Virus record (IMG/VR): IMGVR_UViG_3300042691_003787
Coordinates: 1 to 43,189 of that record
Strand: one strand, 5' to 3'
DNA from: a virus
DNA: 43,189 nucleotides
Part shown: one piece after another, positions 9,301-38,501 of the stretch
How positions within the stretch are numbered: the first letter of the stretch is position 1
Layout: each line of letters opens with the position of its first letter
The notes under the pieces: model-generated
The model's database searches: none
What the model was told of the DNA's origin: nothing
What the model saw: the letters and a program-made list of their open reading frames with translations, nothing else
Program-made: the position numbers and the translations under genes

Positions 9301-12300
9301 GCTAAATCAATAGAACTGCAAGATGCCCCCACGGTTAAAGAGTTAAATACTCTTTCAGAACATATTAGAGCTATAGAAAACGATATTGCTAGACCTATAG
9401 AAAAAGTAGTCCCTGCTACAGTACGGGACTCTGGCGTCGAAGGAGCACCAGAAGCGTATTTTAGAGGATGGCAAAAGAAACTCCGCGAACAACTTGCGGA
9501 AGCTAAAGATCGATATACCTTTGGTGCGGATGTTCTTGAAGGAGCATTTAACCGGCTCCGCAACGGTGTCGTCCGAGTAGGGCGTTCGCTTGAATCCGCT
9601 CAAAGAATCAAAGGGCCAAATGAGTCTGCGCTTCGGGGAGCGTTGGAGGGTCAGTACGAAAAACTTCGTAAATTTGTAGACCTCCACCCACAGTTTGATT
9701 ATCTCGTTAAAGAAGAAGAACTTCGTAAGGCATTCCCCACCTATCGACCCCCGGCGGTTGCGACTACTCCTGAGAAAGCTATCGACAGCCTTTCCCGTGC
9801 GATGGGTAGGAACATTGGCAAAGTGGTTTCGGTTACGACGACCCCCGAAAAAGCGGGGTTAAAGAACGTCCCGGCTGGCGCACGCGCAATGGTGTCCCCG
9901 GAAGGGAAGGCATACCTTTTCACCGACATGATCCCCGAAGGGGATGAACTTTCTGTATTCCTGCACGAGTTTGGCGATCATCTGGGGATGCGTGCATTAG
10001 TAGGAAATGGTAACTACAACTATCTTGTCAACAAAGTCAAAGAATGGGCAGCGAACACCAAGAGCGATAGTCGGGAAAGTCGTCTTGCTCGTAAAGCACT
10101 GAAACGAGTTCCAAAAAAGACAGATGTTGATGATGAAATCTTAGCTTACTTTATTGAAGAAGCAGTTCGCGATGGGATCAATCCCAAAGATTTACAATCT
10201 TCCGTGAAGCCCGAAACTTTGTCGGAATCCTTAAAAGCATTTTTCAACAAAGTCATGGGTGGGGTTAAAAACCTACTTAGCAAACTGCGTCTTAACCCCG
10301 AAAATATCAAAGCCCAAGACATTGTGGATCTTGCGTATGGCGCTGCTCACTTAGAGTTAGACGAAAAAATAAACGCGCTAGAGGCGGCCCCGGCTCCAGT
10401 AGTAAAAACAAAACGAGCTAAAAAACTTCCCAAAGCCAAGTTCTCTATGGCCCCTGCGGGGGAATTCGTTTCTGCGCCTCGGGTTCGTAGAGACACTCCC
10501 GCCCTAGTCACTATGCGAGAAGATCCTATTGGCGCAACCGAGACCGTATCGGATGTACAGACTGTTGCCGAAAGGATATTTGGTTTGATGGATAGCATCG
10601 TGGATGCGGCACCGGAGTGGTCTCAGAAAACGCTTAAGGCGGTGCAAAACGCGATTGAAAACCCAGTTGCTAAGGACTCCCGTTCGCTCATCAACGATGC
10701 GTTAAGCCTTAGGGAACTTGCGGAGGAAAACAAAACTTCTAACCCAGAAATGTCTACCGCTATCTTAGATTTGCACAAAGCGGTGTCTAAGCGAGATTTT
10801 AGGGCGGCTACTTACCTCCAAGAAATGGAAAAATTTTACACTAGCGCCAAAAAACGTTTGGGCAAATTTGATCTTAATACCCAGAAAATGTTCCATAATC
10901 TCGTGCATCAGTCCACGTTGAAACGAATTCAATTTGATAAATCGGAAAATAAAGGACACCCGCTGACCAAACAATTTGAGTCTATGAATGCGGATTTACA
11001 GAAACTGTATTTTGAATTACGAGATCAGTATGCGGGTATCTTGCAGAAATTCTTAGACCAGATTGATACTTCTGAGGTTCTTGGCCCAGCAAGTAAGGTA
11101 CTTGCCAAACTGATGGCTAAGCAGATCACTCCTTATTTCCCGTTGTTCCGCCGTGGGGACTTTTGGCTGCGGTATGTAGACCCTACCACTCAAGAAGACT
11201 GGGTGCTGGCGTTTGAGAACAATAGCGACCGGCGTGATGCTGAGCGGTTTTTGAAGTCCAACGGTATGAAAGAGATCACACCGTTCCGGCGTCCTAAAGA
11301 AGTGACGATGGATAACCTTCCACCGACCAGACAGTTTAGGGACATCATTAAACTACTGGAAGAAAAGCTGCCCAGAGACCCTACCACCAAAGAGATGACC
11401 CCTTCGGCGCAGGACGCCCTTAACGAAGTATACGGCACATGGCTCACCATGTTCCCCACCCAATCCATCATGCAAAATTTCCGGCCTCGTAAAGGCACGC
11501 TTGGTTTTAGAGAAGATTCTCTTGCCAACTTTGCAGAGGTGGGTAGCCGCATGGCGATGAACGTCGCGCAGTTTGAGTCCATCCAGTCAATCGATAAGGC
11601 TATTAATGCGGCTAAGGGCGCTAGAGGAAACCGCCCCAACGCCAAAGACAACGCGGCATGGGAGAGCATCCAGTCCAGAGTACCATTCCTCAAGAACCCC
11701 GTGCAGAAAGATGGGTTTGTGGGTGCTCTGGCGGCAAAATCTGGGTATCTGTCGTATGTTTATTACTTGATCGGCAATCCGTCCACCGCGATTGCTAACT
11801 ACATGCAGCTACCCATTATTGCGGTGCCGGTGCTCGGTAGTCGATATGGTTATACAGAAACCACGGCGGCTTTTTCAAAAGCCACATATATGTATTTCAA
11901 AGGTGGGTATGACGACAACACTACTATGGGTAACCCGCTTACTGGGAGACCAATGGCGGATCGGTCGATCATGGGGGATAAATCGAAACTGTCTCCAGAG
12001 CACCGAGAATTGTTTGAAGCTGGTTTAGAGCAGTCGGCGTTCACTAGAACTGTCGGCCAAGAACTACTAGAAGTACGCCGTAAAGGACTTTCTGATCCGA
12101 CAAGCATGACGCTAAGAGTACAGACTTGGCTCAGCCGGATGTTCACCAACGTAGAACGCCACAACCGGGAAGTCACTCTCCTTGCTGCTTATGAACTTGC
12201 CCGTAAGGGAAGCAGCACCCGTAAAAAACTTGACCACGCGCAAGCCATTGAGGAAGCGATTAAGGCCGTGGAAGAAATCCACTCTTCCTCTAAAGCGGAA

Positions 12301-13360: not shown

Positions 13361-13567
13361 CTACTTAGATTTATATACACGCCATACCCGCACTCCTCTT
13401 ATCCCATTCTCTATCGATAGCCGCACTACTACTAAAAACCCTCGTTTTTTGCATTCGTCTTTGATTATCTTCTTGGCGTATTGCCAATTCAAAACTGGGA
13501 TAAAAAACGAAGAATACGGCTTAAACTTATCCCACTCTACGTTAAACTTAATTGTGTGAATCCGCAT
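13361..13567 (-). CDS. Small basic hypothetical protein
   Basis: This 68-residue protein starts inside the end of the primase-helicase gene (20-bp overlap). It is rich in Lys, Phe and aromatic residues and ends with SIENGIRGVRVWRV, a pattern seen in small phage proteins of unknown role. A balanced composition and its place at the end of the operon make it more likely real than the overlapping plus-strand frame. No function can be assigned. Confidence 0.65.
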   Translation of the reverse strand: MRIHTIKFNVEWDKFKPYSSFFIPVLNWQYAKKIIKDECKKRGFLVVVRLSIENGIRGVRVWRVYKSK

Positions 13568-16352
13568 TACCTACCCCACCTAAAAACGATTCGTCAAACT
13601 CGTACTGGAACACATAGGTATTAACCGGCGGTGCGCCCACTACCTTAGTGCCTTTGCCTAAGCGTTTCTTTCTCTCCTTCAAAAACAACCCTTCAGCTTT
13701 CATAGTTTTAAGCAAGTCATTACAGATCACCCGGTGTTCGGCGCAATACTCCTTGAACACTTTGCTAGAAACATAGACCAGCTTAGTGTCTGGCTCCATG
13801 CGAATTAACAAATGGTTCCGGGGTTCTTGCAAGGGTAAGCAAGGGAGGTTGGTCTTAGGGTCTAAACTATCTCTAATGACGAGCGTGTTGCCGACGTTTT
13901 GATTTATGAACTGCCCAAGGAAGTCGGTGTTAGACACCTTCTGATCAGATACGGCACGGCGCAGATCAGGCACCATTTCATCGAGTGCCCACTTGAGGAT
14001 GCGCTGAATATCCCAATCAAGGATCCCAAGCTTCACGGCGATGAGACCTCCGGTGATGTTAGCTGCGATGACCGCCGACCAATACCTGTCCCGGTTGCTG
14101 AACTTGCAGTAGTCATCTATATAAGCCTGCACCTCATGGTAAAGCTTAATCGCCTCAGGTAGGTTGCTCACTAGCCACTTGATGAATAACTGCCCTGCCA
14201 TGCCGTAGTTCTTGTTCAACGTCTCTTCAAATAACTTGTAAGCCTCGCGCTTATCCAAAAGATTCGTAGCGTTAATCCGGTACTCCAGCAACCGCATCAC
14301 CTCACCGTTAGCCATAGACTTGTGGGAGGCTAACACTTCCGTCATCGACGCATTAGAAGAACCAATCCCGATAGTGCTCCATGTGGTGTCGTTCTTGCGC
14401 TCCATGTTAGTGAGAGCTTGCATACGCCCCGGCCCCTGACCTTGGGACACGGAATACAGGAGCCGGGAAATATCTTCCGGCTTCATATTCGTAAGCTCAT
14501 CTGCGGTAAACGCCAAGTTGTTCAGCACCCCCAACCGGAACAGTTTGTGGGCTAAGGTGTCCGATTCCTTCGACATTAGCTCGTTAGGGTGACCATAGAA
14601 GCTGTTGATCATCCGCAGAATTGTCGTTTTCCCCGTTCCTGAATCTTTGTTTATCAGATTAATGAACGCCCCTTTGTAGTTGGAGTGCCGCATGAGTGGT
14701 GCCCCCAGAGCGGTTAGGACTGCAAACGCATGAGGCTCGAATCCGGGCTTGTTATAGACGTTAGCGACCTTCTGCCACTCGGCGTATTCCCCTTGGCAGT
14801 GCATCCACTGTGCGACAGACAGCGTAGTCTCAGACGGGGGGCTATACCTGATCTCGGTGGCAGAAATTTCTTTATCTCCCACCACAAATCTTGAGTTGTC
14901 CTCAACCCATCCCATCTGCTGACGCAAGACTTCTGCATCATTAGTGAACTGTTGAAACTTAGCGCACTCCACTAGATAACCCATAATCCCATCCACTAGA
15001 TTTGGCATACAGATACAACCATTCCCCGCAAGCAGTTTGCGTAGTTCCTCTTTTGAACTCATCACTGACAGAGGAATCACAAATTCTTTTGGCTTGTCTT
15101 TGGGTAAATGGATTCTAGCTAAAACCAACTCACCCCGGTCTTTGTCCCGCATACGTTTGACAATAAACAAATCATTCTCGTAAACCAATTTCGGTTCTTC
15201 ATCTTTGACATCTTTATATACCCCACCATTTTTAGCTCGGAAGAACGGATACGGCATAGGGGGGATTGGGTACAGGATTGTCAGCCCTTCTTCCTCAACC
15301 TCTAATACCTCTTCTTCGACGGGCGCTTTCTGTATCTCAGTACCCAGTACGATAGGACTACGAATACGCTCCTTGTGCGGACAACCCTCGCATTTTTCCG
15401 GATTGAGGCTTTCAAAGATGTCGCACCGATACGGCTTATTCTCAAGCCTGTCGGCCTTGAGTTCCGTTTCTTCTCTGCTGTAATCCTCGTGCTGATCGGA
15501 GATAGCATGGACAGCGATTTCCCAATCAACGCAGTTGCGGGCAATCGAAAGCCCCGCACGCCACAAAGGCTCAGGAATCTCCTCCTGCTTAGTCAGGATG
15601 TACTCAAGCTGAGCACAGCCCTTACCCTCAACAATCCGCTCAACAATCTTCTGGAAACTAAACTTCCTATCGCCCACCAATTTTTTCATCAGGGGGCTAA
15701 GCCCCGGCTTGATATGCGACGGCGTAGGTGGCAGTGGGTTGAACGCGGCAATCGCGACTTTGAGCAGATCTACATCTATCTCCGTAGGCTCAAAGATAAC
15801 CTCAACCTCAGGATAAGGTTTCCGCTTAAAGTTCAACGTCCCCGGCAGTCTTAAGATTCGCGCTTCATCAGCAGTCACCGCAGGGTCAGCACGGAACTGA
15901 TGATCTTTGCACAGCGTCTTGAGTCTTTCGGCAAGTGCCTTCCACTCATGCCTCGGGATAGTCTTGTTGAACGGCCAATAGCAATGAAAGCCATTACCGG
16001 AATCTACAATCCCCGGCGCGCCAATCTCGATTTTATTGCAAAACTCAACAAGCTCCTCAAGCGCCTGCTGCTTGGAGCTAAACTTCTTGGGGTCATCAGG
16101 ATCTACATCAAGATCCATAAATAGAGTTTTGTAGAACAGCGCATTCTCTTTGATACGCTTGCCCATCTGCCCATACTTGGCGCAGCCAAAGTAAATGTTG
16201 TAGTCCTTGCCTAGCAGCCTCCGTACTTGTGCATCGATGTCGTCAAAGCTTTCTAGAAATACTTGCTTTGTAGGTGAGTTTTCTTTTAACCCTACAATGC
16301 AGTACGCCCCCTGATCGGACAATACTGTCCCTAAGAAATCTCTGTAGTTCAT
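13548..16352 (-). CDS. Primase-helicase, archaeo-eukaryotic primase fused to P-loop helicase
   Basis: This 934-residue protein should prime and unwind phage DNA. The N-terminal part has the three archaeo-eukaryotic primase motifs: FMDLDVD (metal-binding Asp80 and Asp82), SGNGFHCYW (His123) and LRLPGTLNFK (168-176). Cysteines near 310, 321 and 324 (CDIFESLNPEKCEGC) suggest a zinc site next to it. The C-terminal half has a Walker A SGTGKTT at about 571-577 and a Walker B-like AFTADEL, as in D5/DUF927-type phage helicases. It follows the HTH gene by 12 bases and is the last large gene of the replication operon. The ribosome binding site is weak (AAAGA). Primase assignment rests on the motifs and is strong. 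Confidence 0.9.
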   Translation of the reverse strand: MNYRDFLGTVLSDQGAYCIVGLKENSPTKQVFLESFDDIDAQVRRLLGKDYNIYFGCAKYGQMGKRIKENALFYKTLFMDLDVDPDDPKKFSSKQQALEELVEFCNKIEIGAPGIVDSGNGFHCYWPFNKTIPRHEWKALAERLKTLCKDHQFRADPAVTADEARILRLPGTLNFKRKPYPEVEVIFEPTEIDVDLLKVAIAAFNPLPPTPSHIKPGLSPLMKKLVGDRKFSFQKIVERIVEGKGCAQLEYILTKQEEIPEPLWRAGLSIARNCVDWEIAVHAISDQHEDYSREETELKADRLENKPYRCDIFESLNPEKCEGCPHKERIRSPIVLGTEIQKAPVEEEVLEVEEEGLTILYPIPPMPYPFFRAKNGGVYKDVKDEEPKLVYENDLFIVKRMRDKDRGELVLARIHLPKDKPKEFVIPLSVMSSKEELRKLLAGNGCICMPNLVDGIMGYLVECAKFQQFTNDAEVLRQQMGWVEDNSRFVVGDKEISATEIRYSPPSETTLSVAQWMHCQGEYAEWQKVANVYNKPGFEPHAFAVLTALGAPLMRHSNYKGAFINLINKDSGTGKTTILRMINSFYGHPNELMSKESDTLAHKLFRLGVLNNLAFTADELTNMKPEDISRLLYSVSQGQGPGRMQALTNMERKNDTTWSTIGIGSSNASMTEVLASHKSMANGEVMRLLEYRINATNLLDKREAYKLFEETLNKNYGMAGQLFIKWLVSNLPEAIKLYHEVQAYIDDYCKFSNRDRYWSAVIAANITGGLIAVKLGILDWDIQRILKWALDEMVPDLRRAVSDQKVSNTDFLGQFINQNVGNTLVIRDSLDPKTNLPCLPLQEPRNHLLIRMEPDTKLVYVSSKVFKEYCAEHRVICNDLLKTMKAEGLFLKERKKRLGKGTKVVGAPPVNTYVFQYEFDESFLGGVGNADSHN

Positions 16353-16364
16353 TGTTGCGTGTCT

Positions 16365-16616
16365 TTAGTTATGTTTTATAGCCACACCTCCAACATTTAG
16401 CATAGCTACAATGCGGTCACTGTATGATTGCCTCGGTGTTGACTGGCCGGTAAACCACTTATAAATCGTCATTTTTGAAACCCCAAAATACTCCGCTACC
16501 TCAATAGCAGAGATGTCTCGACTTATGCAGTACCGACCAAGTTGAACACCGAGGCTATCAGCAGATGCGCGGTCATTTGCGTCAATGATGCGCGTGCTGT
16601 AGCCCCGGTGATCCAT
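16365..16616 (-). CDS. Small helix-turn-helix DNA-binding protein
   Basis: This 83-residue protein is mostly one helix-turn-helix unit: ISAIEVAEYFGVSKMTIYKWFTG, an XRE/Cro-like or transposase-like HTH, with a basic tail. It sits two bases after the probable ssDNA-binding gene and just before the primase-helicase. A phage regulator or origin-binding protein would fit, and it is the clearest small DNA-binding protein near the repeats at 30.6-34 kb, but no sequence evidence ties it to a site. Confidence 0.75.
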   Translation of the reverse strand: MDHRGYSTRIIDANDRASADSLGVQLGRYCISRDISAIEVAEYFGVSKMTIYKWFTGQSTPRQSYSDRIVAMLNVGGVAIKHN

Positions 16617-28344: not shown

Positions 28345-29616
28345 TTAGACCTCGATGGGGAGCGCCCATCCCACAGTCGGCGTGAACTGTGCGAAAGAGT
28401 TATCCGTCACACACCACAGCGGAGCGGGAAGCTGAGACCAATCGCCCTGCCCACCGAAGTACCCATCGGTCAGCATCAGCACGCACTGAGTCCCCTCAAC
28501 CAGACCATGCTCGCGCAGATACTCGGGCACACACGAGGGGTCAGTACCGCCACCACCCTTGGGCTTGGTCGTATTAATAAGAGTGCCGTAGGTCTGTGCG
28601 GTATAGGTCTCGGTCGATTGCACACGGCCATCCCAGTACACCAGCACCAACTCTTCGGGGCACACATCCTCCACGACCTTCTGCACATTGCCGAGGAACG
28701 CCGAGAGCAGCGGGCCTTGGATAGAGCCGGAGGTATCGATACCCACCACGATGCGGCGAAAGCTGTCGTCGTAGCTGCTAGGCATGTAGATACCAGCGCC
28801 CTGCATACGCCGATTGAAGCGACGCCATGTGGTCTTGCCGAAACCCTTCGCCATGCTGCCCCTGATGTGGTCGGCCAAGACCTCGCGCCAATCAACCTTT
28901 GACGCAATCACCTCACCAAGCTCACGCGACGCAGTACCACCCATGCGGCCAGCAACCTCGTTGCCTTGGCGAATCAACTGATCGACCTCGTTAGCCAATA
29001 CATCTTTCTCAGCTTGAGTAAGCTCCTCGCCCGCAGCGAAGTCGTGCTCGTCGAACTGCTGACCAACCTTGGCACGACCGCGACCCTTGCCCTTGCCCTT
29101 GCCATCACTCGGCTCGTCGTTAGGCTCGCCATCCTCACCCTCTTCACCGCCATCCTCCTGCTCCTCTTCCTCTTTCTTAAGAATGTCGAAGACCTGCTTG
29201 GCGTTAAGCCCACGGAAATCCTCGTCGATGAGCGGGATACGCAGGCCGTCTTTAGTAGGCACGGCGATGTGGGGGCACACCTTGGTCAGGTCGAGCAGCG
29301 GGAGATTGATAACGTAGTCGCACGCCATGTTGGTCAACTGTGCGTCCTGCTTCCAGAGCGCTGCCCACTGCACGATGTGGCGGAAGCCGATATGCAGTGC
29401 CTCGTGGAGAATCACGAACACCAACTCAGGATCAGTCAGGCCGTCCATGAAGTCGTCGCCCATCACGATGTTGCGGCCATCGGTGTAAGCAGTGGGGCAC
29501 TGCCCAATCTTAGTGTCACCGAACATGACGAGCGGGGCGAACTGCGAAAGTTCCTTGGTGCGAGCGATGATGCTTTGGGCTTTCTCGATGCGCTGCGAGC
29601 GGGTTAGGGTAGTCAT
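28345..29616 (-). CDS. HExxH metallopeptidase-like plus VWA domain protein (DUF2201-like)
   Basis: This 423-residue protein starts with a metallopeptidase-like domain (HEALHIGFRH, residues 71-80, then ACDYVIN). An acidic/basic low-complexity linker follows (about 149-182: KKEEEEQED to KGKGRG). The C-terminal VWA domain has the metal-dependent adhesion motif: DTSGS (294-298), Thr358 in GGGGTDP and Asp384 in LTDGYFGG. This is the DUF2201/VWA arrangement that pairs with MoxR-type AAA+ ATPases, here encoded at 31027. MoxR/VWA pairs act as chaperone-like machines that load metals or remodel proteins. The start overlaps a two-codon frame (ATG CAA TGA). Confidence 0.88.
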   Translation of the reverse strand: MTTLTRSQRIEKAQSIIARTKELSQFAPLVMFGDTKIGQCPTAYTDGRNIVMGDDFMDGLTDPELVFVILHEALHIGFRHIVQWAALWKQDAQLTNMACDYVINLPLLDLTKVCPHIAVPTKDGLRIPLIDEDFRGLNAKQVFDILKKEEEEQEDGGEEGEDGEPNDEPSDGKGKGKGRGRAKVGQQFDEHDFAAGEELTQAEKDVLANEVDQLIRQGNEVAGRMGGTASRELGEVIASKVDWREVLADHIRGSMAKGFGKTTWRRFNRRMQGAGIYMPSSYDDSFRRIVVGIDTSGSIQGPLLSAFLGNVQKVVEDVCPEELVLVYWDGRVQSTETYTAQTYGTLINTTKPKGGGGTDPSCVPEYLREHGLVEGTQCVLMLTDGYFGGQGDWSQLPAPLWCVTDNSFAQFTPTVGWALPIEV

Positions 29617-29621
29617 TGCAT
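29613..29621 (-). promoter_or_regulatory. Two-codon upstream frame overlapping the VWA start
   Basis: ATG CAA TGA lies directly behind AAGGACACA and overlaps the main ATG as ATGA. The same arrangement is found at 30627-30635 (ATG CAA TGA, 314-residue gene) and at 28022-28030 (ATG ACA TGA, 344-residue gene). It could set translation by reinitiation. Whether it is translated is not known. Confidence 0.35.
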
Positions 29622-29647
29622 TGTGTCCTTGTGTTGTCGTTGTGTGT

Positions 29648-29668
29648 GCCCCGGATCAGCACCGGGGC
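29648..29668 (-). terminator. Hairpin with GCCCCGG stem downstream of the 314-residue gene
   Basis: GCCCCGG and CCGGGGC pair over a 7-base loop (ATCAGCA). A copy differing by one loop base lies at 30991-31011 after the MoxR gene; both share TGCCCCGG and CGTTGTG flanks. No T run, so attenuation or mRNA end protection is as likely as full termination. Confidence 0.5.
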
Positions 29669-29685
29669 GTTGTGTGTTGTATGGA

Positions 29686-30630
29686 TTACAGATTGAACTT
29701 GTTGAGGATGTCGTCGAGCTTAGCCTTGGCAGCGACGCGGGCACCGGCATCTTTCTTCAAATCGCCGAGGTCAGTCACGGCAAGCAGGCGACGCAGGTCG
29801 TTGCCCATCTCCGACAGTCGCGGGTCATTGCCCACGTTCAAGTCATTGAGCAGGCCGACGAAATCCTCGGCATTGGACAGCATGGAGTCGTGCAGCTTGG
29901 TCTTCTTGCCATCGGGGCGTGAGCCGTCGAAGTTGGACTCCTTGAGCTTGTCGGCCATGTGGCTAACGATTTTGTGCAGGCGTTCCCACACATTCTGCAT
30001 GGCGCGTGCCTCGCGGCTGTGTGCCTCGTGCATGGAGTGCTCGACCACCTCGGCCAGACCCGCGTTGTTGGTATCGACCATCCAGTGACCAGCGGTCGGC
30101 ACCGGGGAGTACATCTTGTTGAAGGCGAACTTGCCACGAACCTCGTGCTCAGTGGGGTAGTTGGAGCGGTCGAACATCTTGCCCAAGGTGAACGCAGCGG
30201 CAGCCACATGCGTGTTGTAGTCGGCCAAGAAGGCATCGACCATATCCCAATACTGACGCTCGAACTCGGTAAGCTGTGCTTTGTGGTCAAGCATCAGCGA
30301 CATGGGGAGCAGGCGCAGGCCGTTGTCGTTCCACGGCATGGTCAGGTTCTTGTTCCAAGTCCGAACCATTGCGGCGAACTTCTTGATGGTGTCGAGTTCC
30401 TTGCACTCGGCGAGCAAATTCTTGAGATAAGTGCCAGCCTTGCTGCTCGCGTTGTTGTCCACGGCCACATCGTTCGCGACTTCGGAGTCGGTCACGGTGG
30501 CAGAGAAAACCTTGATGGAAAGGTCGAACAGCACGGCGCTGCTCGCGATGGTGGTGGCGTTGTTTGTCATGGCAGTGCCCTCGTTGTTGGTCAGGATGTT
30601 GTTGTTGGTGGTGATGGTCATCGTGTTCAT
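29686..30630 (-). CDS. Hypothetical protein (314 residues) between the MoxR and VWA genes
   Basis: The product starts with a Thr/Asn-rich segment (MNTMTITTNNNILTNNEGT), then a helical body with KNLLAECKELDTIKKFAAMVRTWNKNLTMPWNDNGLRLLPM and a C-terminal Lys/Asp-rich helix. No known domain was recognised. Its place between the MoxR ATPase and the metallopeptidase/VWA gene, with one of the conserved 28-bp palindromes and a promoter upstream, suggests it is a substrate, adaptor or third component of that machine. An alternative start at MTNNATTIASS (residue 21) is possible. Confidence 0.75.
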   Translation of the reverse strand: MNTMTITTNNNILTNNEGTAMTNNATTIASSAVLFDLSIKVFSATVTDSEVANDVAVDNNASSKAGTYLKNLLAECKELDTIKKFAAMVRTWNKNLTMPWNDNGLRLLPMSLMLDHKAQLTEFERQYWDMVDAFLADYNTHVAAAAFTLGKMFDRSNYPTEHEVRGKFAFNKMYSPVPTAGHWMVDTNNAGLAEVVEHSMHEAHSREARAMQNVWERLHKIVSHMADKLKESNFDGSRPDGKKTKLHDSMLSNAEDFVGLLNDLNVGNDPRLSEMGNDLRRLLAVTDLGDLKKDAGARVAAKAKLDDILNKFNL

Positions 30631-30654
30631 TGCATGTGTCCTTTTGGTTATATG

Positions 30655-30682
30655 AATACTTTAGGAAATTTCCTAAACTATC
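30655..30682 (-). promoter_or_regulatory. Palindromic repeat, copy A
   Basis: Core TTTAGGAAATTTCCTAAA lies at 30660-30677, flanked by ATAC and CTATC. It lies in the 5' leader of the 314-residue gene, starting about 19 bases downstream of the predicted transcription start of the promoter at 30708-30736. One flank base differs from the other copies. Confidence 0.9.
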
Positions 30683-30707
30683 TTTCGGGATGTGTTTCGA
30701 CTTGGTT

Positions 30708-30736
30708 AGTTTAAGTGAGTGTATGGATTACGTCAA
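30708..30736 (-). promoter_or_regulatory. Sigma70-like promoter for the 314-residue gene
   Basis: On the minus strand TTGACG (30731-30736), 17 bases, then TAAACT (30708-30713). The palindrome copy A begins about 19 bases after the expected start point, suited to repression by a bound protein. Confidence 0.5.
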
Positions 30737-30740
30737 TCAA

Positions 30741-30977
30741 TTACATATGTAGATACTTGTCTGTGTCTCCCCAATACATTGGATGATTCATATCGTCGCC
30801 ATCGTCCCACCAACATTCGGGAGTTGATTTGGGTTGGAGCGGGGCGATATAGAGCGGATGGTTGACCCCTTGAAACTCTTTCTTAAGTTTCACCTTGGCG
30901 TACTTCTTTTTTAGTTGAGCGAGTTGGTTACAGGCACGGCGATTAATCCGGCTCAGCTTGTCCATGTTCTTAGACAT
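30741..30977 (-). CDS. Small hypothetical protein (78 residues)
   Basis: GGAGGACTG precedes the ATG. The N-terminal half is basic and helical (MSKNMDKLSRINRRACNQLAQLKKKYAKVKLKK), the rest is rich in Trp, Asp, Pro and Tyr (ECWWDDGDDMNHPMYWGD). It follows the hairpin after the MoxR gene. No family recognised. Confidence 0.65.
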   Translation of the reverse strand: MSKNMDKLSRINRRACNQLAQLKKKYAKVKLKKEFQGVNHPLYIAPLQPKSTPECWWDDGDDMNHPMYWGDTDKYLHM

Positions 30978-30990
30978 CAGTCCTCCGATT

Positions 30991-31011
30991 GCCCCGGCTC
31001 AGCACCGGGGC
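30991..31011 (-). terminator. Second copy of the GCCCCGG hairpin, downstream of the MoxR gene
   Basis: GCCCCGG and CCGGGGC around the loop CTCAGCA, the same as at 29648-29668 apart from one loop base. It lies just past the MoxR stop codon. Confidence 0.55.
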
Positions 31012-31026
31012 GTTGTGGGTTAGGGG

Positions 31027-32274
31027 TTAGTACTTGAAGCCGTTGAGTGACGCCCACTTCTGGAACTCGTGAGTCGTCACCGTCAAATCCCACAGCTTGG
31101 ACATGACAGTCACCTCCTGCTTGCGGGCAGCTTTCTCGGCGGCATCCTTGACGCTATGCACGAACATCGTCTGTGCATCGGGAGCCAGCCCGCCCATCAT
31201 GTAGGTGAACCAACCTGAAATCCGATTCTTCACCTCAAGCTTGCTATCGGGAGCAGGCAGGCCGTAACCAGCCCCGGCAATCCACACGCAGGCATTGAGC
31301 GAGCAGATGATGTGCGCCGCGATGGATGTGGGGTAGGGCGCATTGCCCGCCATGATTTGCTTGGCGCTAGGCAGCTCCATTGCAAAGTTCTTAAACACAA
31401 GCATCGAGCGAGCAGCTTGGTTACCAATCACACCCTGCAAGTCGGCGAGAAGCATCTGCTCCGTGTACCGCAAGCCCATTGCCTGAGCATTGAAGTAGGC
31501 ATGGAAGACGTTGCTGGCAAACTCAAGACTGCGAGCAGTCACACAGCCCTGATCACGCGCAGGATTCTTGGGGTCAGGGTTGTACACCATGCTCTTGATG
31601 TCATCCGGCAGGCTGGCAAAGTCAGGGTCGAGGTAGCTGGCAAAGCACAGCGGAGTTTGCTTGACCCATCCCTGCACGATGGGGTGGATGTTGTGCTCGA
31701 AAGCCCACGGCAGCCACTCGTCGGTGTACGGATTCCTAACGTAGTGCATGGTGACCTTGTTGCGGGTATGGCTCTTGACCATATCGCCCACACCATCGGT
31801 GCCGAGGTTGCCGGTGCCAATGATTACGCTGTCGGGGTGCAGCATCATCGAGAGCAGGCGACGGCAGCCAGTCTTCTTGTCCTTGGAGAACAGTTGGTGT
31901 ACCGCATTCTGGCTGGCGGGATTCTGTGGCTTGCTGTACTCGTCGATGAGCAGCACCACCGGCTTGTCAGGCGTGAAGCCGAAGATTTCATTGAACCAGT
32001 AGGCAAAGGTCTTGCTCTCCGGGTCAGGCATGGGGATAGCCAAGTCAGCCGGATCCAGCGTCTGCATATCGAGGAAGACGAGCGTGTACTCCGTCCCCAT
32101 GATGCGGGTCAGGCTGTCGGCAATGTACTGGCCGATTGAAGTCTTGGCCGTGCCCGGAGGGCCGAGAATCAGGTGTGCTTGGTTAGCACCGCACACAGCG
32201 TCTGCAATGATGGAGTCGGCGATGTCGATGATGCCGAGCCGGGTCAGGGTGTTGTTGATAGTAGCCATTGTCAT
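31027..32274 (-). CDS. MoxR-type AAA+ ATPase
   Basis: This 415-residue AAA+ protein has Walker A GPPGTAKT (38-45) and Walker B VVLLIDEY (Asp111, Glu112). A second half includes an Arg-rich segment typical of the AAA+ lid. Such ATPases act with VWA proteins (here the one at 28345) to remodel or activate partners. Two in-frame starts are possible: the ATG at 32274 is only three bases behind AGGA, whereas the ATG at 32268 has nine bases, so 32268 is probably the real one. The palindrome copy B lies just upstream. Confidence 0.92.
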   Translation of the reverse strand: MTMATINNTLTRLGIIDIADSIIADAVCGANQAHLILGPPGTAKTSIGQYIADSLTRIMGTEYTLVFLDMQTLDPADLAIPMPDPESKTFAYWFNEIFGFTPDKPVVLLIDEYSKPQNPASQNAVHQLFSKDKKTGCRRLLSMMLHPDSVIIGTGNLGTDGVGDMVKSHTRNKVTMHYVRNPYTDEWLPWAFEHNIHPIVQGWVKQTPLCFASYLDPDFASLPDDIKSMVYNPDPKNPARDQGCVTARSLEFASNVFHAYFNAQAMGLRYTEQMLLADLQGVIGNQAARSMLVFKNFAMELPSAKQIMAGNAPYPTSIAAHIICSLNACVWIAGAGYGLPAPDSKLEVKNRISGWFTYMMGGLAPDAQTMFVHSVKDAAEKAARKQEVTVMSKLWDLTVTTHEFQKWASLNGFKY

Positions 32275-32299
32275 GTGTCCTCTTTGTTGTGTGTATTCG

Positions 32300-32327
32300 G
32301 ATACTTTAGGAAATTTCCTAAACTATC
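32300..32327 (-). promoter_or_regulatory. Palindromic repeat, copy B
   Basis: Perfect match to the family: GATAC, core TTTAGGAAATTTCCTAAA, CTATC. It lies between the 96-residue gene and the MoxR gene. The stop codon (TAG) of the former lies inside the repeat. Confidence 0.95.
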
Positions 32328-32613
32328 GGTCGTACTCGTCTGCATCCCCGTAAGATGACGGGATTCTCTCGCCGGTATGGGCGCATCGAAGACCTGAGTC
32401 TTCCCAATTAATATCGAAGGCAACCACACGCCATCCGCAGTTGGAGTTGTCGCGGATCGCACGGATGATTTGCTTGGCTTCCTGTTTGGCCGCTGCAAAG
32501 GACAGGGCTTCCCCATCCGAAGTCAGGAAGAACATCTGATACCCACCGGGCCATGCGTATGCACCGTTGCGGATAGCGTCTTTGAATTGTTTGGTGGTCA
32601 TTGCCATTGTCAT
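32323..32613 (-). CDS. Hypothetical protein (96 residues)
   Basis: Starts MTMAMTTKQFKDAIRNG behind an AGAGGACACATGACA leader. It is a small globular protein with FFLTSDGEALSFAAAKQEAKQIIRAI and a C-terminal segment with VVAFDINWEDSGLRCAHTGERIPSSYG, resembling a small family found in phages and mobile elements. The stop codon lies in palindrome copy B. Function unknown. Confidence 0.75.
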   Translation of the reverse strand: MTMAMTTKQFKDAIRNGAYAWPGGYQMFFLTSDGEALSFAAAKQEAKQIIRAIRDNSNCGWRVVAFDINWEDSGLRCAHTGERIPSSYGDADEYDR

Positions 32614-32632
32614 GTGTCCTCTTTGTTATGTG

Positions 32633-32660
32633 GATACTTTAGGAAATTTCCTAAACTATT
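32633..32660 (-). promoter_or_regulatory. Palindromic repeat, copy C
   Basis: As copy B, one end base differs (CTATT). It lies upstream of the 96-residue gene and contains the TAG stop of the 98-residue gene. The 333-bp distance to B and 340-bp distance to D make two similar-sized gene cassettes. Confidence 0.95.
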
Positions 32661-32952
32661 CTTCGGGCCATTCGGCACCGACAGGGATCAGCCACAGGTC
32701 ACCGTCCTGCCATAGCGTGTACTGCACGCCATCATCCTTGCTGGTAACGATGCAGTGCGAAAGGCATTCATCCCACGCATCCCAATACCCCTCGTGCTCC
32801 GGGCCGATGGCAAGCACCTCTTTGACCCAACTCGACACGCCGTCGATGCAGTCTTCGTAGGTGAATTCGATGAAGTTTTGCGGGATGTAAATCCCACGGC
32901 TATCGCACAGGTAAAGCTTGGCAGACTCAGGAAGGTTGATGCTCATTGTCAT
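32656..32952 (-). CDS. Hypothetical protein (98 residues)
   Basis: It starts MTMSINLPESAKLYLCDSRG after GGAGATATGACA. The sequence is acidic, with GPEHEGYWDAWDECLSHC and TLWQDGDLWLIPVGAEWPEE, an aromatic-rich small domain that I do not recognise. It is the first gene after a strong promoter and palindrome copy D. The stop is within copy C. Confidence 0.75.
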   Translation of the reverse strand: MTMSINLPESAKLYLCDSRGIYIPQNFIEFTYEDCIDGVSSWVKEVLAIGPEHEGYWDAWDECLSHCIVTSKDDGVQYTLWQDGDLWLIPVGAEWPEE

Positions 32953-32972
32953 ATCTCCGATTGGTTTGGTTG

Positions 32973-33000
32973 GATACTTTAGGAAATTTCCTAAACTATC
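32973..33000 (-). promoter_or_regulatory. Palindromic repeat, copy D
   Basis: Perfect family member located about 26-54 bases after the predicted start of the promoter at 33033-33060, so it would be in the 5' end of the transcript that runs into the 98-residue gene. Confidence 0.95.
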
Positions 33001-33032
33001 GTTTGGTGCGCGTTATTGTCCCGACAGAAGAC

Positions 33033-33060: not shown

Positions 33061-33148
33061 GCATTTGAATGATGACTTGAATTAGGGGATTGAATTGAAG
33101 AATCGGATTGAATTTGGGCCGATTGGCACGGGATTGGGTTGGATAGGC

Positions 33149-33290
33149 AAACTTCGAGATTATGTATTGTGGGTGAGGGGATGTTCTGGAAGGGGTGAGA
33201 TAGAAAAACTTCGAGATATAAACTTTAAATTGGATATTCAAACTTCGAGATTATGTATTTTAGATACTGGTTTTCGAGCTACAAACTTTG
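33149..33290 (+). repeat. Three direct repeats of AAACTTCGAGAT
   Basis: Perfect 12-mers start at 33149, 33206 and 33240; the first and third extend to CAAACTTCGAGATTATGTATT. A diverged fourth, TTCGAGCTACAAACTTT, is at 33272-33290. It lies in the non-coding region, left of the inverted iteron array. Function unknown. Confidence 0.85.
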
Positions 33291-33337
33291 ATTGGTTAAA
33301 GAATGAGCAAGAATCGGCTAAGTGTTTGATTTGCTTT

Positions 33338-33668
33338 ATGTTCCCTATGTTCCAGAATCAACGTGAATGTTCCAACGTAAGTCTATGATGTTCCACATGT
33401 TCCAAATGTTCCAGAAAAAAACAGTGTGTGGCTAAAAGAGGGTGTGTGTGAACTCTTGTGCGAAAAAACAAAAGAAGTCTTCTAATCACCTCATTTTGAA
33501 AAGTTTATATATTAAGCACATACATTTTAGCTACCCCTTTTACCCGCTCACTGCTGGAAGCCGGAACATTTGGAACATGTGGAACATCAAAGACTTGTGC
33601 TGGAACATTCGCGTTGATTCGGGAACATTTGGAACAGCCCTTGATTTTGTTCATGTTCCCAATGTTCC
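33338..33668 (+). repeat. Large inverted repeat of ATGTTCC iterons, candidate origin or partition site
   Basis: ATGTTCC occurs forward at 33338, 33347, 33367, 33388, 33397 and 33406. It occurs reversed as GGAACAT at 33563, 33572, 33581, 33602 and 33622, with an imperfect copy at 33631, and forward again at 33653 and 33662. The arms 33338-33412 and 33563-33637 are inverted copies with 66 of 75 bases matching and the same spacing in mirror order. Copies inside clusters are 9 bp apart. The 150-bp centre contains an AT-rich stretch (about 33480-33535) and no gene. Such iterons around an AT-rich segment are typical of replication origins; centromere-like sites are an alternative. Confidence 0.85.
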
Positions 33669-33726
33669 AATTGGCCGCGAGCTAAGTCATTGATTCTTTA
33701 TTTCAACGCGTAATCTTAGTTGGCAG

Positions 33727-33754
33727 GATACTTTAGGAAATTTCCTAAACTATC
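33727..33754 (-). promoter_or_regulatory. Palindromic repeat, copy E
   Basis: Perfect family member in the non-coding region, between the iteron array and copy F. No convincing gene follows it on either strand, so it is not tied to a promoter here. Confidence 0.95.
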
Positions 33755-33816
33755 CGATTTCGGGGTTGGCCCGCGTGGCTGCCGTCCTCCGGAACTGGTC
33801 AGGTCTGGCCCATCTG

Positions 33817-33844
33817 GATACTTTAGGAAATTTCCTAAACTATC
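33817..33844 (-). promoter_or_regulatory. Palindromic repeat, copy F
   Basis: Perfect family member, 90 bp from copy E, in the same orientation. The flanking sequence is GC-rich and unlike the AT-rich iteron region. Confidence 0.95.
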
Positions 33845-33990
33845 CCGCCCTGCGCCATGCACCACGCTAAGCGAGGCGATCTCGCGCCGACGACGAACCG
33901 CCCGAGCCATCCGGCATCGATGTGGCAGCTTGGACGACTACGTTGCCGACGCGCCGCTGTGGCCTTCCCACCAGTTCCCAAAACGCAGGC

Positions 33991-34097: not shown

Positions 34098-34715
34098 TTA
34101 TTCTGCCGCCTTGTTCTTCGCCTTCATGCCGCGAAGGGCCGCCTTCAGTGCAACGTCCCAGCAAAGCACCATTGCCTCAAGCGAACCGGCATCCAGTCCG
34201 TCGATGGCCTTTTTCAAGGTTGCACGGTAGCCATTTTTATCCGCCACCGCCTTGGTGGGAGTGCGCGGCGCACGTTTCGCTTTGGCCTTGGCGTTCTTGG
34301 CCTTGTTCTTGGCCTTGGCCGCCGTAGTCTTGGCATTCTTGGAATTCGGAGCCGTGACGCCTGCATCCTTCGCTAGACTGTAGAAAGACGCCTTCGCGCT
34401 AGCACCAGCCACACACTCACGGCACGGGCATTTGCTGCCCTTCGCGTCGTTGTGCTCTTCGTTGTGCTTGTTCAGCCGTTCGTACTTTGCGATCAAGTGG
34501 GGCCGGTATCCACCAGCGAAGAACCCGATTGCAGACTCCCACAAGGCCTTGGAAGGATACTCTCCGAGCCGCGCCCGTAGCGTATCCGTCACGCTGGCCT
34601 TGGTCGCACCGTATTTATCGCCCGCCTTGGTCAAGGCAGTGCCGAACGGCAACGCTTCGGAAAGAGTAGCGGCGGTGGTGTTGGTGGTGTTGGTGGTGTT
34701 GTTGGTCATTGTCAT
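34098..34715 (-). CDS. Lys/Ala-rich basic protein (205 residues)
   Basis: The start has Thr/Asn repeats (MTMTNNTTNTTNTTAAT), followed by a globular middle (FGTALTKAGDKYGATKASVTDTLRARLGEYPSKALWESAIGFFAGGYRPHLIAKYERLN). A cysteine pair (CPCREC) and a Lys/Ala linker (KTTAAKAKNKAKNAKAKAKRAPRTP) lead to a short helical end. The tail looks like that of histone-like or DNA-condensing proteins. Two in-frame ATGs are possible; the second, with GGAG nine bases upstream, is better. I do not recognise the family. Confidence 0.75.
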   Translation of the reverse strand: MTMTNNTTNTTNTTAATLSEALPFGTALTKAGDKYGATKASVTDTLRARLGEYPSKALWESAIGFFAGGYRPHLIAKYERLNKHNEEHNDAKGSKCPCRECVAGASAKASFYSLAKDAGVTAPNSKNAKTTAAKAKNKAKNAKAKAKRAPRTPTKAVADKNGYRATLKKAIDGLDAGSLEAMVLCWDVALKAALRGMKAKNKAAE

Positions 34716-35008
34716 GTACTCCAGATAGTTGATGTATTGTGTCCGATTCGATGCCCGAACCGTGATTGAATAATGCGCTATCGCATTGGGCTAAACTAGG
34801 CCGTGGGGATTTGGGGCCGACCCCCCACCCCCCAAATCCACGTTAGGAGTCCCGCATCCTTCCTAATTCCTAATTTGCACAGTCAAACCCACCAATTTCA
34901 AATCTAGAAACACCCCCCATACCTTTTTCAAATTCAGACCCCCCACCCCCTATTTTTTGTAAAATTAAGTTTTGCTATACTCCGGCCACCCAAAGCATTC
35001 GTATATCT
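34716..35008. other. Intergenic control region between divergent genes
   Basis: About 290 bases with no gene. It holds an inverted repeat AATGCGCTATCGCATT (34772-34787), a 10-bp inverted repeat GGATTTGGGG/CCCCAAATCC with a 13-base loop (34807-34839), and two direct copies of GACCCCCCACCCCC (34819 and 34937). An extended -10 lies at the right end. It lies just before the terminase genes, where a packaging site would be expected, but none is proven. Confidence 0.6.
34973..34981 (+). promoter_or_regulatory. Extended -10 promoter for the terminase operon
   Basis: TGCTATACT matches the extended -10 (TGn-TATAAT with one change). The start codon of the terminase small subunit is 27 bases further on and has no clear ribosome binding site. 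Confidence 0.5.
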
Positions 35009-36016
35009 ATGAAAGCACCAATCGTTATAACGCCAGATTTTAATCACCCACTTCGTCTTCATAATTTGGAGTACGAACAGTTAACAGACCCCGTAGAAGG
35101 CGGGTCTCAATATGTGTTGGTGCTTAATGAGCAACACGAATCTAGGTGGGCTAAACGCAACACTGAAGAACGATCTTTAGACGACGCAGCCCATATCGCT
35201 GCAAACACCGCCTCATTCCTTTTGCAGTTGGGGATGAACCCCGACAAAGACGAAGTTGAACAAGACGAGTGGCTCGTTGCCAACCCGCCGCATGAATATG
35301 CAAAGGACTCTAACCGCCTGCCAAACGGGCTTGATGCGGTCGAGATACTGAAGATCATTGGGTCGTCTATTAGAAACAACGTGATCTACAACATGCCCGA
35401 AGACTTCCTTGTAGAGAAAGGTTGCTATAAAGAAGTGAAAGATGAGACGGGCAAATTAACCAAAGTGCCTTACTTAGACATAGATATTGAAGTGTCGGGG
35501 AAAAGAATTCGCACTGCTAAACCTAGTGAGAACTACGGGCTTAATCAAAACCCAACTCGTACTAACAAACCACCAATTCCCCCACAAGATATTTACTCTA
35601 GTAGAGTAGCCCTAAAGTTAGCGGCGCTTCTTAATGAGTACGATAAGCAGATTGTTCAAGATTCTGTACAACTAAGAACCTACATTACAAATAAACTCAT
35701 TGAGATTTCTAACTGCGGTAATACCAAAGACGAGCTAAGAGCGTTAGAATTATTAGGTAAGCATTCAGATGTTGGGTTGTTTGTTGAAAAGACAGAGATT
35801 AGTGTGGTAAATACTACTCCGGCTGCTTTGGAACATGCGATTAAAGATAAGATCAACAGACTGCTAGGCTACGCTAATATCGAAATGGCAGATGGTGAAT
35901 TCACTGAGGCGGTTAATAGAGAACCCGTGGAGCTTGAAGTAGATTCAGATGATGGATTCCCCGAATACAGACTCTCCATCGACGAAGAAGACGAAGATTC
36001 CGAAGAAACCCCTTAA
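35009..36016 (+). CDS. terS: Terminase small subunit
   Basis: This 335-residue protein precedes the large subunit and overlaps it by 68 bases. The region SSRVALKLAALLNEYDKQIVQDSVQLRTYITNKLIEISNCGNTKDELRALELLGKHSDVGLFVEK, with its repeated helical LLGKxSDVGLF pattern, resembles terminase small subunits of tailed phages that bind the packaging start site. The C-terminus is acidic (EEDEDSEETP). The call rests on the pattern and on the next gene being terminase large subunit. Confidence 0.85.
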   Translation: MKAPIVITPDFNHPLRLHNLEYEQLTDPVEGGSQYVLVLNEQHESRWAKRNTEERSLDDAAHIAANTASFLLQLGMNPDKDEVEQDEWLVANPPHEYAKDSNRLPNGLDAVEILKIIGSSIRNNVIYNMPEDFLVEKGCYKEVKDETGKLTKVPYLDIDIEVSGKRIRTAKPSENYGLNQNPTRTNKPPIPPQDIYSSRVALKLAALLNEYDKQIVQDSVQLRTYITNKLIEISNCGNTKDELRALELLGKHSDVGLFVEKTEISVVNTTPAALEHAIKDKINRLLGYANIEMADGEFTEAVNREPVELEVDSDDGFPEYRLSIDEEDEDSEETP

Positions 36017-38501
36017 GGAACCTAAGCCGGATTACAATTTGAACGCTCAAGAGCTACAAGCAATTCTTTCTCTGCTGCCAACACTGCCGGAAGCGGAGAT
36101 GCGTTCTCTATTATTAGACTTGGAACGGTACGAGCAGGCTGTAGAACGAGAAAAAGCCCACGATGACTTCCTAGTTTTTGTGAAAAGGATGTGGCCGGGT
36201 TTCATTTCCGGTCGGCATCACAAGATTATGGCCCGTGCCTTTGAGCGCGTAGCCCGAGGCGAGATAAAACGCCTCGTTATTAATATGCCACCCCGGCATA
36301 CCAAGTCAGAATTTGCTTCATACCTCCTTCCGGCATGGTTTTTAGGCAAATTTCCCGAGAAAAAGGTCATTCAAACGTCTCACACTGCCGAATTGGCGGT
36401 TAATTTTGGCCGTAAGGTGCGAAATTTGGTGGATGAGGAGGGTTACCGCAGTATTTTTCCCGAAACCGTGCTGCAAGTGGACTCAAAAGCGGCGGGGCGA
36501 TGGAATACCAGCAAGGGCGGGGACTATTTCGCTATCGGTGTTGGAGGTGCAGTCACTGGGAAGGGTGCTGATCTGCTGATTATCGATGACCCACACAGCG
36601 AACAAGAAGCCACCATTGCTGAAACCAACCCCGAGGTCTACGACAAGACGTATGAGTGGTACACCTCAGGCCCAAGACAGCGTTTGCAGCCGGGGGGATC
36701 TATCGTCATCGTGATGTGCATGGTTGGGGACACCGACGTACTGATGGCAGACGGCACCACGGTAAAACTTAAAGACATCCGCCCCGGTAATAGGGTAGCG
36801 ACGTATGAGGACGGGAGGATTACCACGGCGACGGTCACCAATTGGCAGTCAAACGGTGTTGATGAAGTATTTACAGTACAAACACAATCTGGCAAGCTCC
36901 TTACTGCCAACGAGAGACATCCGTTTCTTGTGGAAATTGATGGAGAGCGCAGATGGATACGACTAAAAGACCTCAAACCGGGGATGTCACTTGTCTCAAC
37001 GAGGGATGCAACCGGCCACCTAGATCTAAAACGAAACCCGGTTTGTGCCACCCTTGCCAAGCAAGAGAAGCCTATCACCGTAAAAACCCTAACGCCCCCT
37101 ACAAACCTATTGGGTTTCACGGGAAGTGGAAAGGTAAAACGTGTGTTGAAGAAGACTGCGGAAAGCCTGTTCACTGCAAAGGGCTATGCGTCGAGTGCTA
37201 CCGCAAGCGGTATTGGGCATCAGGTGGGGGGCGTCAGACTCCAGCCGCTAAACGAGGACACCGCATCAAATCTCGGTACGGCATCACTGTGGAACAATAT
37301 GACGCGATGGTTGCAGAGCGTGGAAACCGCTGTGATGTCTGTGGGCAACCGCCTACAGAGTCTAATACCCGCGCCCACTGGAACGGAAAGCTATGTATCG
37401 ACCACGACCACGATACCGGAAAAGTTCGTGGACTCTTGTGTAACGACTGCAATCTTATGGTCGGATACGGTAAAACCCCCCATGCTTTGCGGAGAGGCGC
37501 TGAATACTTATTGCGTCACTCTTGATGCTATTACGTCAATCACACCTTCCGGACGGGAGGAAATCTTTGATGTTGAGGTAGAACGGACGGAAAACTTTAT
37601 TGCCAATGGAGTAGTGAGTCATAACACGCGCTGGAGTAAGCGGGATTTGACCGCTCAGGTGCTGAAAGCTGCTGCACTGCGGGATGGTGAAGAGTGGGAG
37701 GTCATCGACTTCCCGGCCATTATGCCCAGTGGAAACCCGCTGTGGCCTGAGTTTTGGCCGTTAGAAGAGTTAGCAGTTCTAAGAAATGAGCTTCCCCACT
37801 CCAAGTGGATGGCTCAGTACATGCAAGACCCCACATCTGAAGCTAGTGCCATTATCAAAAGAGAGTGGTGGCAAGTATGGGAGAAAGACGACCCGCCGAA
37901 CTGCGAGTTTGTGTTGATGTCGTGGGATACGGCGTTTGAAAAGCATAACCGTGCCGACTATTCCGCTTGCACAACTTGGGGCGTTTTCTATCGAGACGAC
38001 GACGGTTCTGATTGGGAGGTCAGTAAAGCCGACCGGGGCAAGCCGCAGGCGCATATTATTCTGCTGAATGCGTTCCGAGATCGGATGGAGTTTCCTGAGT
38101 TAAAACGTGTAGCCATAGAACAGTATCGATCTTGGGAACCTGATGGGGTGATTATTGAAAAGAAAGCCTCAGGTGCGCCTTTGATTTATGAGCTTCGTGC
38201 GATGGGTATCCCCGTGCAAGAGTTCACACCGACTAAAGGTAATGACAAAATATCTCGACTTAATGCGGTGTCGGATATATTTGCGTCTGGTAGAGTATGG
38301 ATACCAGAAACTAGATGGGCAGAAGAAGTAGTAGAAGAAGTAGCTTCGTTCCCTGCGGGTGACCACGACGACTACGTTGACTCGGTGTCGATGGCGTTAG
38401 CACGTTTTAGGCAGGGTGGCTATATTAGGACTACACTAGATGAGCCGGAGGAAGAGATTTCGATGCGGTATCGCAATCCAAACCGGAAACCGTACTATTA
38501 A
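35949..38501 (+). CDS. terL: Terminase large subunit with intein (850 residues, 547 after splicing)
   Basis: The ATPase half has Walker A NMPPRHTKSE (112-121) and Walker B LLIIDDP (209-215); the nuclease half has SWDTAF (Asp660), VIIEKKASG (Glu737) and HDDYVD (about 806-811). A 303-residue intein is inserted after VIVM (Cys257 to Asn559, next residue Thr560), splitting the conserved VIVMTRWS motif. The joined protein would be 547 residues, the usual length for this family. The start lies inside terS; a weak ribosome binding site is seen. It packages genome DNA into capsids. Confidence 0.93.
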   Translation: MMDSPNTDSPSTKKTKIPKKPLKEPKPDYNLNAQELQAILSLLPTLPEAEMRSLLLDLERYEQAVEREKAHDDFLVFVKRMWPGFISGRHHKIMARAFERVARGEIKRLVINMPPRHTKSEFASYLLPAWFLGKFPEKKVIQTSHTAELAVNFGRKVRNLVDEEGYRSIFPETVLQVDSKAAGRWNTSKGGDYFAIGVGGAVTGKGADLLIIDDPHSEQEATIAETNPEVYDKTYEWYTSGPRQRLQPGGSIVIVMCMVGDTDVLMADGTTVKLKDIRPGNRVATYEDGRITTATVTNWQSNGVDEVFTVQTQSGKLLTANERHPFLVEIDGERRWIRLKDLKPGMSLVSTRDATGHLDLKRNPVCATLAKQEKPITVKTLTPPTNLLGFTGSGKVKRVLKKTAESLFTAKGYASSATASGIGHQVGGVRLQPLNEDTASNLGTASLWNNMTRWLQSVETAVMSVGNRLQSLIPAPTGTESYVSTTTTIPEKFVDSCVTTAILWSDTVKPPMLCGEALNTYCVTLDAITSITPSGREEIFDVEVERTENFIANGVVSHNTRWSKRDLTAQVLKAAALRDGEEWEVIDFPAIMPSGNPLWPEFWPLEELAVLRNELPHSKWMAQYMQDPTSEASAIIKREWWQVWEKDDPPNCEFVLMSWDTAFEKHNRADYSACTTWGVFYRDDDGSDWEVSKADRGKPQAHIILLNAFRDRMEFPELKRVAIEQYRSWEPDGVIIEKKASGAPLIYELRAMGIPVQEFTPTKGNDKISRLNAVSDIFASGRVWIPETRWAEEVVEEVASFPAGDHDDYVDSVSMALARFRQGGYIRTTLDEPEEEISMRYRNPNRKPYY
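36717..37625 (+). other. Intein in the terminase large subunit
   Basis: The intein starts with Cys257 (CMVGDTDV, block A), has LTANERHPFL (block B) and RWIRLKDLKPGMSLVS, and ends EEIFDVEVERTENFIANGVVSHN followed by Thr (blocks F and G, His-Asn end). Cys start, His-Asn end and a Thr +1 residue fit standard protein splicing. Between the blocks the intein frame has about 175 residues with no recognisable domain; this stretch overlaps the HNH gene in the other frame. Confidence 0.93.
36953..37525 (+). CDS. Endonuclease VII-like HNH homing endonuclease, out of frame inside the intein
   Basis: This 190-residue gene lies in the -1 (+2) frame relative to the intein. GGAG seven bases before its ATG gives a normal start. 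Two treble-type cysteine modules come first (Cys14, Cys19, Cys32, Cys35 and Cys64, Cys69, Cys79, Cys82). The C-terminal half has C127xxC130, LCIDHDHDTGKVRGLLCNDCN with Asp150, His151, Cys163, Cys166 and Asn167. These match the zinc-binding and catalytic pattern of T4 endonuclease VII. It is likely a homing endonuclease for the intein, made as a separate protein. Confidence 0.9.
   Translation: MDTTKRPQTGDVTCLNEGCNRPPRSKTKPGLCHPCQAREAYHRKNPNAPYKPIGFHGKWKGKTCVEEDCGKPVHCKGLCVECYRKRYWASGGGRQTPAAKRGHRIKSRYGITVEQYDAMVAERGNRCDVCGQPPTESNTRAHWNGKLCIDHDHDTGKVRGLLCNDCNLMVGYGKTPHALRRGAEYLLRHS

Follow-up and report, generated by a model that had tools for sequence, protein, structure and literature searches.

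The window, by which we mean the whole stretch of 43,189 bases analysed here, is classed as linear and is probably a fragment, since its named relatives are mostly 50-65 kb. Its leftward early block encodes a primase-helicase, a SNF2-type helicase, an exonuclease, a family A polymerase, a DUF2201 metallopeptidase/VWA protein and an AAA ATPase; its rightward late block encodes a candidate TerS, TerL, portal and GroES. The best TerS candidate (35009-36016) shows weak similarity to relatives and has C-rich runs directly upstream (34819-34835 and 34936-34951). TerL (35949-38501) contains an intein (Pfam Intein_splicing, residues 266-559) that is absent from most relatives. By portal, the closest named relatives are HTVC023P-type pelagiphages, DSL-LC04 and others, at identities of at most 45%.

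An array of short repeats occupies positions 33338-33668. The region had been described as gene-free, and only mechanical plus-strand ORF frames without support span it. It had also been placed near the junction of the leftward and rightward genes; it actually lies within the leftward block, separated by one leftward gene (34098-34715) from the divergent junction at 34716-35008. Nearby, on the minus strand, a module at 28345-32274 comprises the DUF2201 metallopeptidase/VWA protein, a 314-aa protein and the AAA ATPase; it is present in G005, and several array-bearing relatives have genes of similar sizes. The surroundings hold two further kinds of repeat. The near-perfect 30-bp palindrome GGATACTTTAGGAAATTTCCTAAACTATCC is found at 30654-30683, 32299-32328, 32632-32661, 32972-33001, 33726-33755 and 33816-33845, mostly directly upstream of leftward genes. 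Its counterparts in relatives differ (GTAGTGNNNCACTAC, CTAACANTGTTAG, CTCTTANNTAAGAG and TACTGTCNGACAGTA) and number at most 16 per genome; these genome-specific palindromes are probably early operators. The second family, CAAACTTCGAGATTATGTATT, has about 3-4 copies to the left of the array (33139-33290), and a related element, CGAGATATAAACTT, is inverted in the array centre of the close relative L017.

Table 1. Array features and the two candidate binding proteins, in window coordinates.
Feature	Position	Strand	Remark
IHF-consensus site, outer left (TAAGTGTTTGATT as read on +)	33319..33331	-	
Left arm, six ATGTTCC (33338, 33347, 33367, 33388, 33397, 33406)	33338..33412	+	tandem spacing 9 bp
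Degenerate IHF-like TAAGTCTATGAT, left arm, between single iteron and triple	33378..33389	-	one mismatch
150-bp centre with AT-rich core	33413..33562	.	candidate melting site
Right arm, five ATGTTCC (33563, 33572, 33581, 33602, 33622) and TGTTCC (33631)	33563..33637	-	mirrors left arm
Degenerate IHF-like ATCAAAGACTTG, right arm mirror	33587..33598	+	one mismatch
Outer direct iteron pair (33653, 33662)	33653..33668	+	preserved in close relative L017
IHF-consensus site, outer right (TAAGTCATTGATT as read on +)	33683..33695	-	same sequence class in L017, G001
Candidate initiator: AEP PrimPol (~1-205), DUF927/Cch/SaPI-Rep-type helicase (~390-800), C-terminal domain (~820-927)	13548..16352	-	
Small HTH_3 protein beside primase	16365..16616	-	

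Our recount agrees with the initial annotation in finding thirteen exact ATGTTCC copies and one imperfect copy, CTGTTCC, whose TGTTCC lies on the minus strand at 33631-33636. Across the whole contig ATGTTCC is present 21 times, where 5.6 copies are expected, and no shuffle contained as many. The two arms match as inverted copies at 66 of 75 positions, the same count as first given, while the best unrelated inverted 75-bp pair elsewhere in the contig reaches 41; among the arm positions outside iterons, 25/33 match. The inverted register continues with weaker similarity to 103 nt (84/103), and the outermost two iterons are direct and have no mirror partner. The order pair, single, triple facing triple, single, pair, with gaps of 13 and 14 bases, also stands as originally described, as does the AT-rich segment of the centre, where AT content is 0.70 in 33460-33540 and peaks at 0.83 near 33500-33530.

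The iterons are accompanied by sites resembling those of the host bending protein IHF. Of the contig's four exact matches to the consensus WATCAANNNNTTR, two lie just outside the array, and the IHF-like TAAGTNNTTGAT adjoins iterons at a density about 50 times that found elsewhere. Over 22 distinct arrays the motif TAAGTNNTTGA, which fits the IHF consensus, was counted 26 times in 14.5 kb, versus 7 times in 196 kb of surrounding DNA. Called IHF-like because they match the consensus, these putative sites lie beside iterons, as they would in a nucleoprotein site assembled with the help of IHF.

The initial annotation had proposed looking for the same array in relatives, and facing arrays were indeed found at the same genomic place in many related contigs of aquatic phages. 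The array of L017 (TerL 93% match in the best segment) is the same, down to the outer pair, and a stretch of its centre, TTCTAATCACCTCATTTTGAAAAGTTTATAT, is identical. When contigs were scanned for three in-phase iterons, some 25 more proved to have facing arrays; many triple-iteron matches were apparent one-strand repeats and were excluded by inspection and by requiring a mirrored copy. In the two contigs with gene lists (L158 and L201) the array lies between the same genes as in the window, and in relatives it sits within the early leftward block, ahead of TerS-TerL-portal. In all eleven genomes scored, comprising the window and genomes fetched for array-bearing contigs, no mirror site scored higher than the array, which lies at the early block's upstream end.

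The iteron itself varies: TGTTCC is found in most, TGTTCT in L030, L065 and L346, TGTTCG in L032, TGTTAY (TGTTAT/C) in G024 and G035, and a TGTTAG/T type in L077 and G002. Layout and TAAGTNNTTGA persist while the iteron sequence differs between phages. Arrays of the TGTTAG group are less clean because the same half-site also makes dispersed palindromes. G001 has other repeat motifs, with a 37-nt inverted repeat at the place of the array and CTAAGTCATTGATTT beside it. In several marine relatives (e.g. L096, L101, L151 and L162) the centre is not AT-rich, and a GC-rich motif around GTCGCGTAG / GGGTCGCGTAGGAAGTG is conserved there instead, which makes the assignment of a melting site uncertain. 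No array was found in G036, which has the initiator and whose contig ends fall within the array stretch, and other long initiator-bearing contigs mostly showed none where fetched, the contig often stopping short of the site. A DNA-level search of named phages with the array of the window and those of two relatives gave no match. In G024 (contig C1, 47617-48354, minus strand) the TerL match crosses two in-frame TAG codons, reflecting a sequence error, recoding or a broken gene.

Two proteins had been suggested as binders of the array, the HTH protein at 16365 and the primase-helicase. The former is undetectable in several array-bearing genomes and is more likely an operator-binding regulator than an iteron binder; the latter is the better putative binder. 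For this candidate initiator, a profile of 11 relatives matched SaPIbov1 Rep (E 2.3e-24) and SCCmec Cch (1e-20). In its predicted structure residues 1-202 match the S-2L PrimPol (Z 18.7), while Cch aligns with residues 483-927 (Z 26.1) and SaPIbov1 Rep with residues 394-927 (Z 23.8), both reaching the C-terminal domain; the VIA-align list is silent on which folds are absent, and with a mean pLDDT of 71.7 and a pTM of 0.41 the placement of domains is uncertain. AEP-DUF927 fusions are already known from mobile elements (PMC5862659). The C-terminal domain of SaPI Rep recognises an iteron origin and that of Cch2 binds iterons (PMC7581432).

Full-length initiator identity shows no simple correlation with iteron type: G002, which at 50% comes nearest of the eleven in the helicase, nevertheless has TGTTA iterons. 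In the C-terminal wing, N-K-R and KGM are common to the three phages whose iterons are TGTTA, and nine TGTTC phages have GT at the position of the Met; the three are related to each other, so the pattern may reflect descent. It is conceivable, though we consider it doubtful, that the iteron is a fast-changing address read by this wing, within a type of mirrored-iteron, IHF-bent origin used by a large aquatic phage group and at least one phage-plasmid. If the wing does read the iteron, origin specificity could diverge, stopping competing phages and satellites from using each other's initiators.

The initiator is rare among named phages. It was found at full length in Pseudomonas phage Rollin (OR577172.1) and, among plasmid records, split into pieces in E. 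coli pSTEC648_2 (CP061838.1). Both have PrimPol-DUF927, PolA and the SNF2-type helicase in common with the window, and TerL, TerS, portal and GroES of the window type were not detected in either (E 1e-3). Both also contain facing arrays, with iterons unrelated in sequence to those of the window. In Rollin, TATGCAA at 260, 282 and 304 faces copies at 528, 537, 546 and 673, and the only TAAGTNNTTGA of the genome, at 324, falls in the same non-coding region. In pSTEC648_2, GTAGCA at 9262 and 9270 faces TGCTAC at 9375 and 9383, in a non-coding stretch that also holds the only two TAAGTNNTTGA of the record. Markov simulations of the same regions gave nothing as good in 0/1000 cases for Rollin and 0/1000 for pSTEC648_2, counts that are indicative since each statistic was chosen after the array had been seen. 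Conversely, seven named phages that share the portal/TerL (HTVC023P, HTVC027P, 023Pt_psg01, DSL-LC04, Pag-Yong1, RW and CRP-902) lack the initiator, and scanning 12-20 kb near TerL in each revealed no facing array. The array thus tracks the replication genes, and this speaks for an origin rather than a packaging site.

The circular record pSTEC648_2 encodes lysozyme, holin, tail-like long genes, PrimPol-DUF927, ParB and HigBA-like genes (loci L364 and L365), and by its gene content looks like a phage-plasmid. Neither Rep_3 nor IncFII RepA was found in it, so its own PrimPol-DUF927 initiator probably keeps the circular element maintained.

We therefore read the array as the phage origin of DNA replication, with a probability of roughly 0.8. 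The initial annotation had favoured a cooperative nucleoprotein site, most likely a replication origin, and conservation and co-occurrence with the replication module back this. The PrimPol-DUF927 helicase would most likely bind the ATGTTCC iterons via its C-terminal domain, one multimer per arm and the two facing each other, while IHF or a similar host bending protein would bend the DNA beside and between iterons and so fold and compact each arm. The AT-rich centre could then melt and admit two helicase rings, whereupon the fused primase would prime both strands and the phage PolA extend them bidirectionally. Against an origin stands the distance of 17 kb between array and initiator gene, which are distant in relatives too. 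An inflection of GC skew at the array had been put forward as a check; the cumulative minimum of the window is at 29.2 kb and not 33.5 kb, about 4 kb from the array, and in eight fetched relatives it is 0.6-5 kb away. Skew is not decisive here, since gene orientation flips within the same stretch.

The main rival is a packaging initiation site (cos/pac), where the small terminase would bind the iterons, IHF bend the DNA and TerL cut the centre, because TerS lies downstream and lambda cosB, itself upstream of TerS, likewise pairs repeats bound by terminase with an IHF site. The array is indeed upstream of TerS-TerL-portal, as cos is in lambdoid phages, and some array centres have a GC-rich motif. 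The repeats of cosB are not mirrored, however, and a mirror-symmetric site gives no direction to packaging. Moreover, cosB follows the packaging genes whereas the array does not, being present in Rollin and pSTEC648_2, where the window-type packaging proteins went undetected, and missing from the scanned regions of the seven portal relatives. Contig ends of relatives also cluster elsewhere: 11/65 are at C-runs beside TerS (background 1.3%) versus 4/65 at the array, and the former could mark a physical terminus or an assembly break, as C-runs can also break assemblies. On balance we regard a packaging site as improbable, if still the most serious competitor to an origin.

Less probable again is transcription control, with a phage regulator acting on the iterons to switch the early leftward block. 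The array does sit at the upstream end of that block, and the nearby palindromes and CAAACTTCGAGATTATGTATT look regulatory. Early genes, however, already carry their own genome-specific palindromic operators upstream, which makes a purely transcriptional role less likely; iteron clusters are not repeated elsewhere, and a scan for sigma-70 promoters and terminators found no excess at the array. An origin better accounts for the mirror symmetry and for an IHF-like motif that stays constant while the iterons are unrelated. A partition centromere, the alternative named in the initial annotation, we judge very unlikely: facing iterons resemble some parC/parS sites and pSTEC648_2 has a ParB-like gene, but no ParA-type ATPase (PF13614) was found in the window or in seven array-bearing relatives. 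An attP for a tyrosine integrase, suggested by lambda attP, where arm repeats and IHF sites flank the core, is the least credible, because no PF00589 integrase was found in the window or 19 related contigs (partial records; controls matched in all 14).

As an origin, the array shares features with several known systems. E. coli oriC likewise has oppositely oriented initiator arrays and IHF bending; it differs in using DnaA boxes and a host initiator and in having its melting element at one side. P4 has an iteron origin with two separate sites (ori and crr) and a helicase of a family other than DUF927, and we know of no mirrored array in it. Its alpha protein resembles the candidate initiator in uniting initiating helicase and primase in one protein (PMC7145576).

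The closest parallels are the origins of SaPIs and other PICIs, which have two sets of short iterons around a mostly AT-rich centre (PMC6092414, PMC7581432). In PICIs the origin always has an AT-rich region with an iteron set on either side, an arrangement that no other bacterial replicon is reported to have, and plasmid maintenance by pri-rep-ori of the E. coli PICI EcCICFT073 has been assayed (PMC6092414). As in these elements, an initiator of the DUF927/SaPIbov1 Rep family with a primase appears, judging from sequence and model, to be encoded by the same element as the array. Unlike them, the window and its relatives represent tailed phages rather than satellites, primase and helicase are fused, IHF-like sites are present and the arms are longer. 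The SaPI/PICI origin is also immediately 3' of rep, whereas here it would lie at 33.3-33.7 kb with the initiator at 13.5-16.4 kb, so the array is better seen as a variant of the PICI/SaPI origin than as a member. SCCmec provides the closest solved structure, the DUF927 helicase Cch, but its putative origin comprises three short iterons in direct orientation immediately after cch2, with no mirrored arms described (PMC7581432). SCC origins are also not 17 kb away from the initiator gene, as the array is.

A PICI-like layout, together with an initiator from the same helicase family, is seen here in uncultured phages that are abundant, in a Pseudomonas phage isolate and in a plasmid record from E. 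coli that includes phage genes. This supplies a predicted origin for a phage group for which we found no described one, and points to elements that may be the source of the PICI replication module or may share it. Rollin and pSTEC648_2 offer cultured systems for studying initiator-iteron recognition and IHF-assisted origin folding. In Rollin (1-500, locus L362) the palindrome AAAAGGTAGYAASTTRCTACCTTTT occurs four times around the array and is a candidate genome-specific operator.
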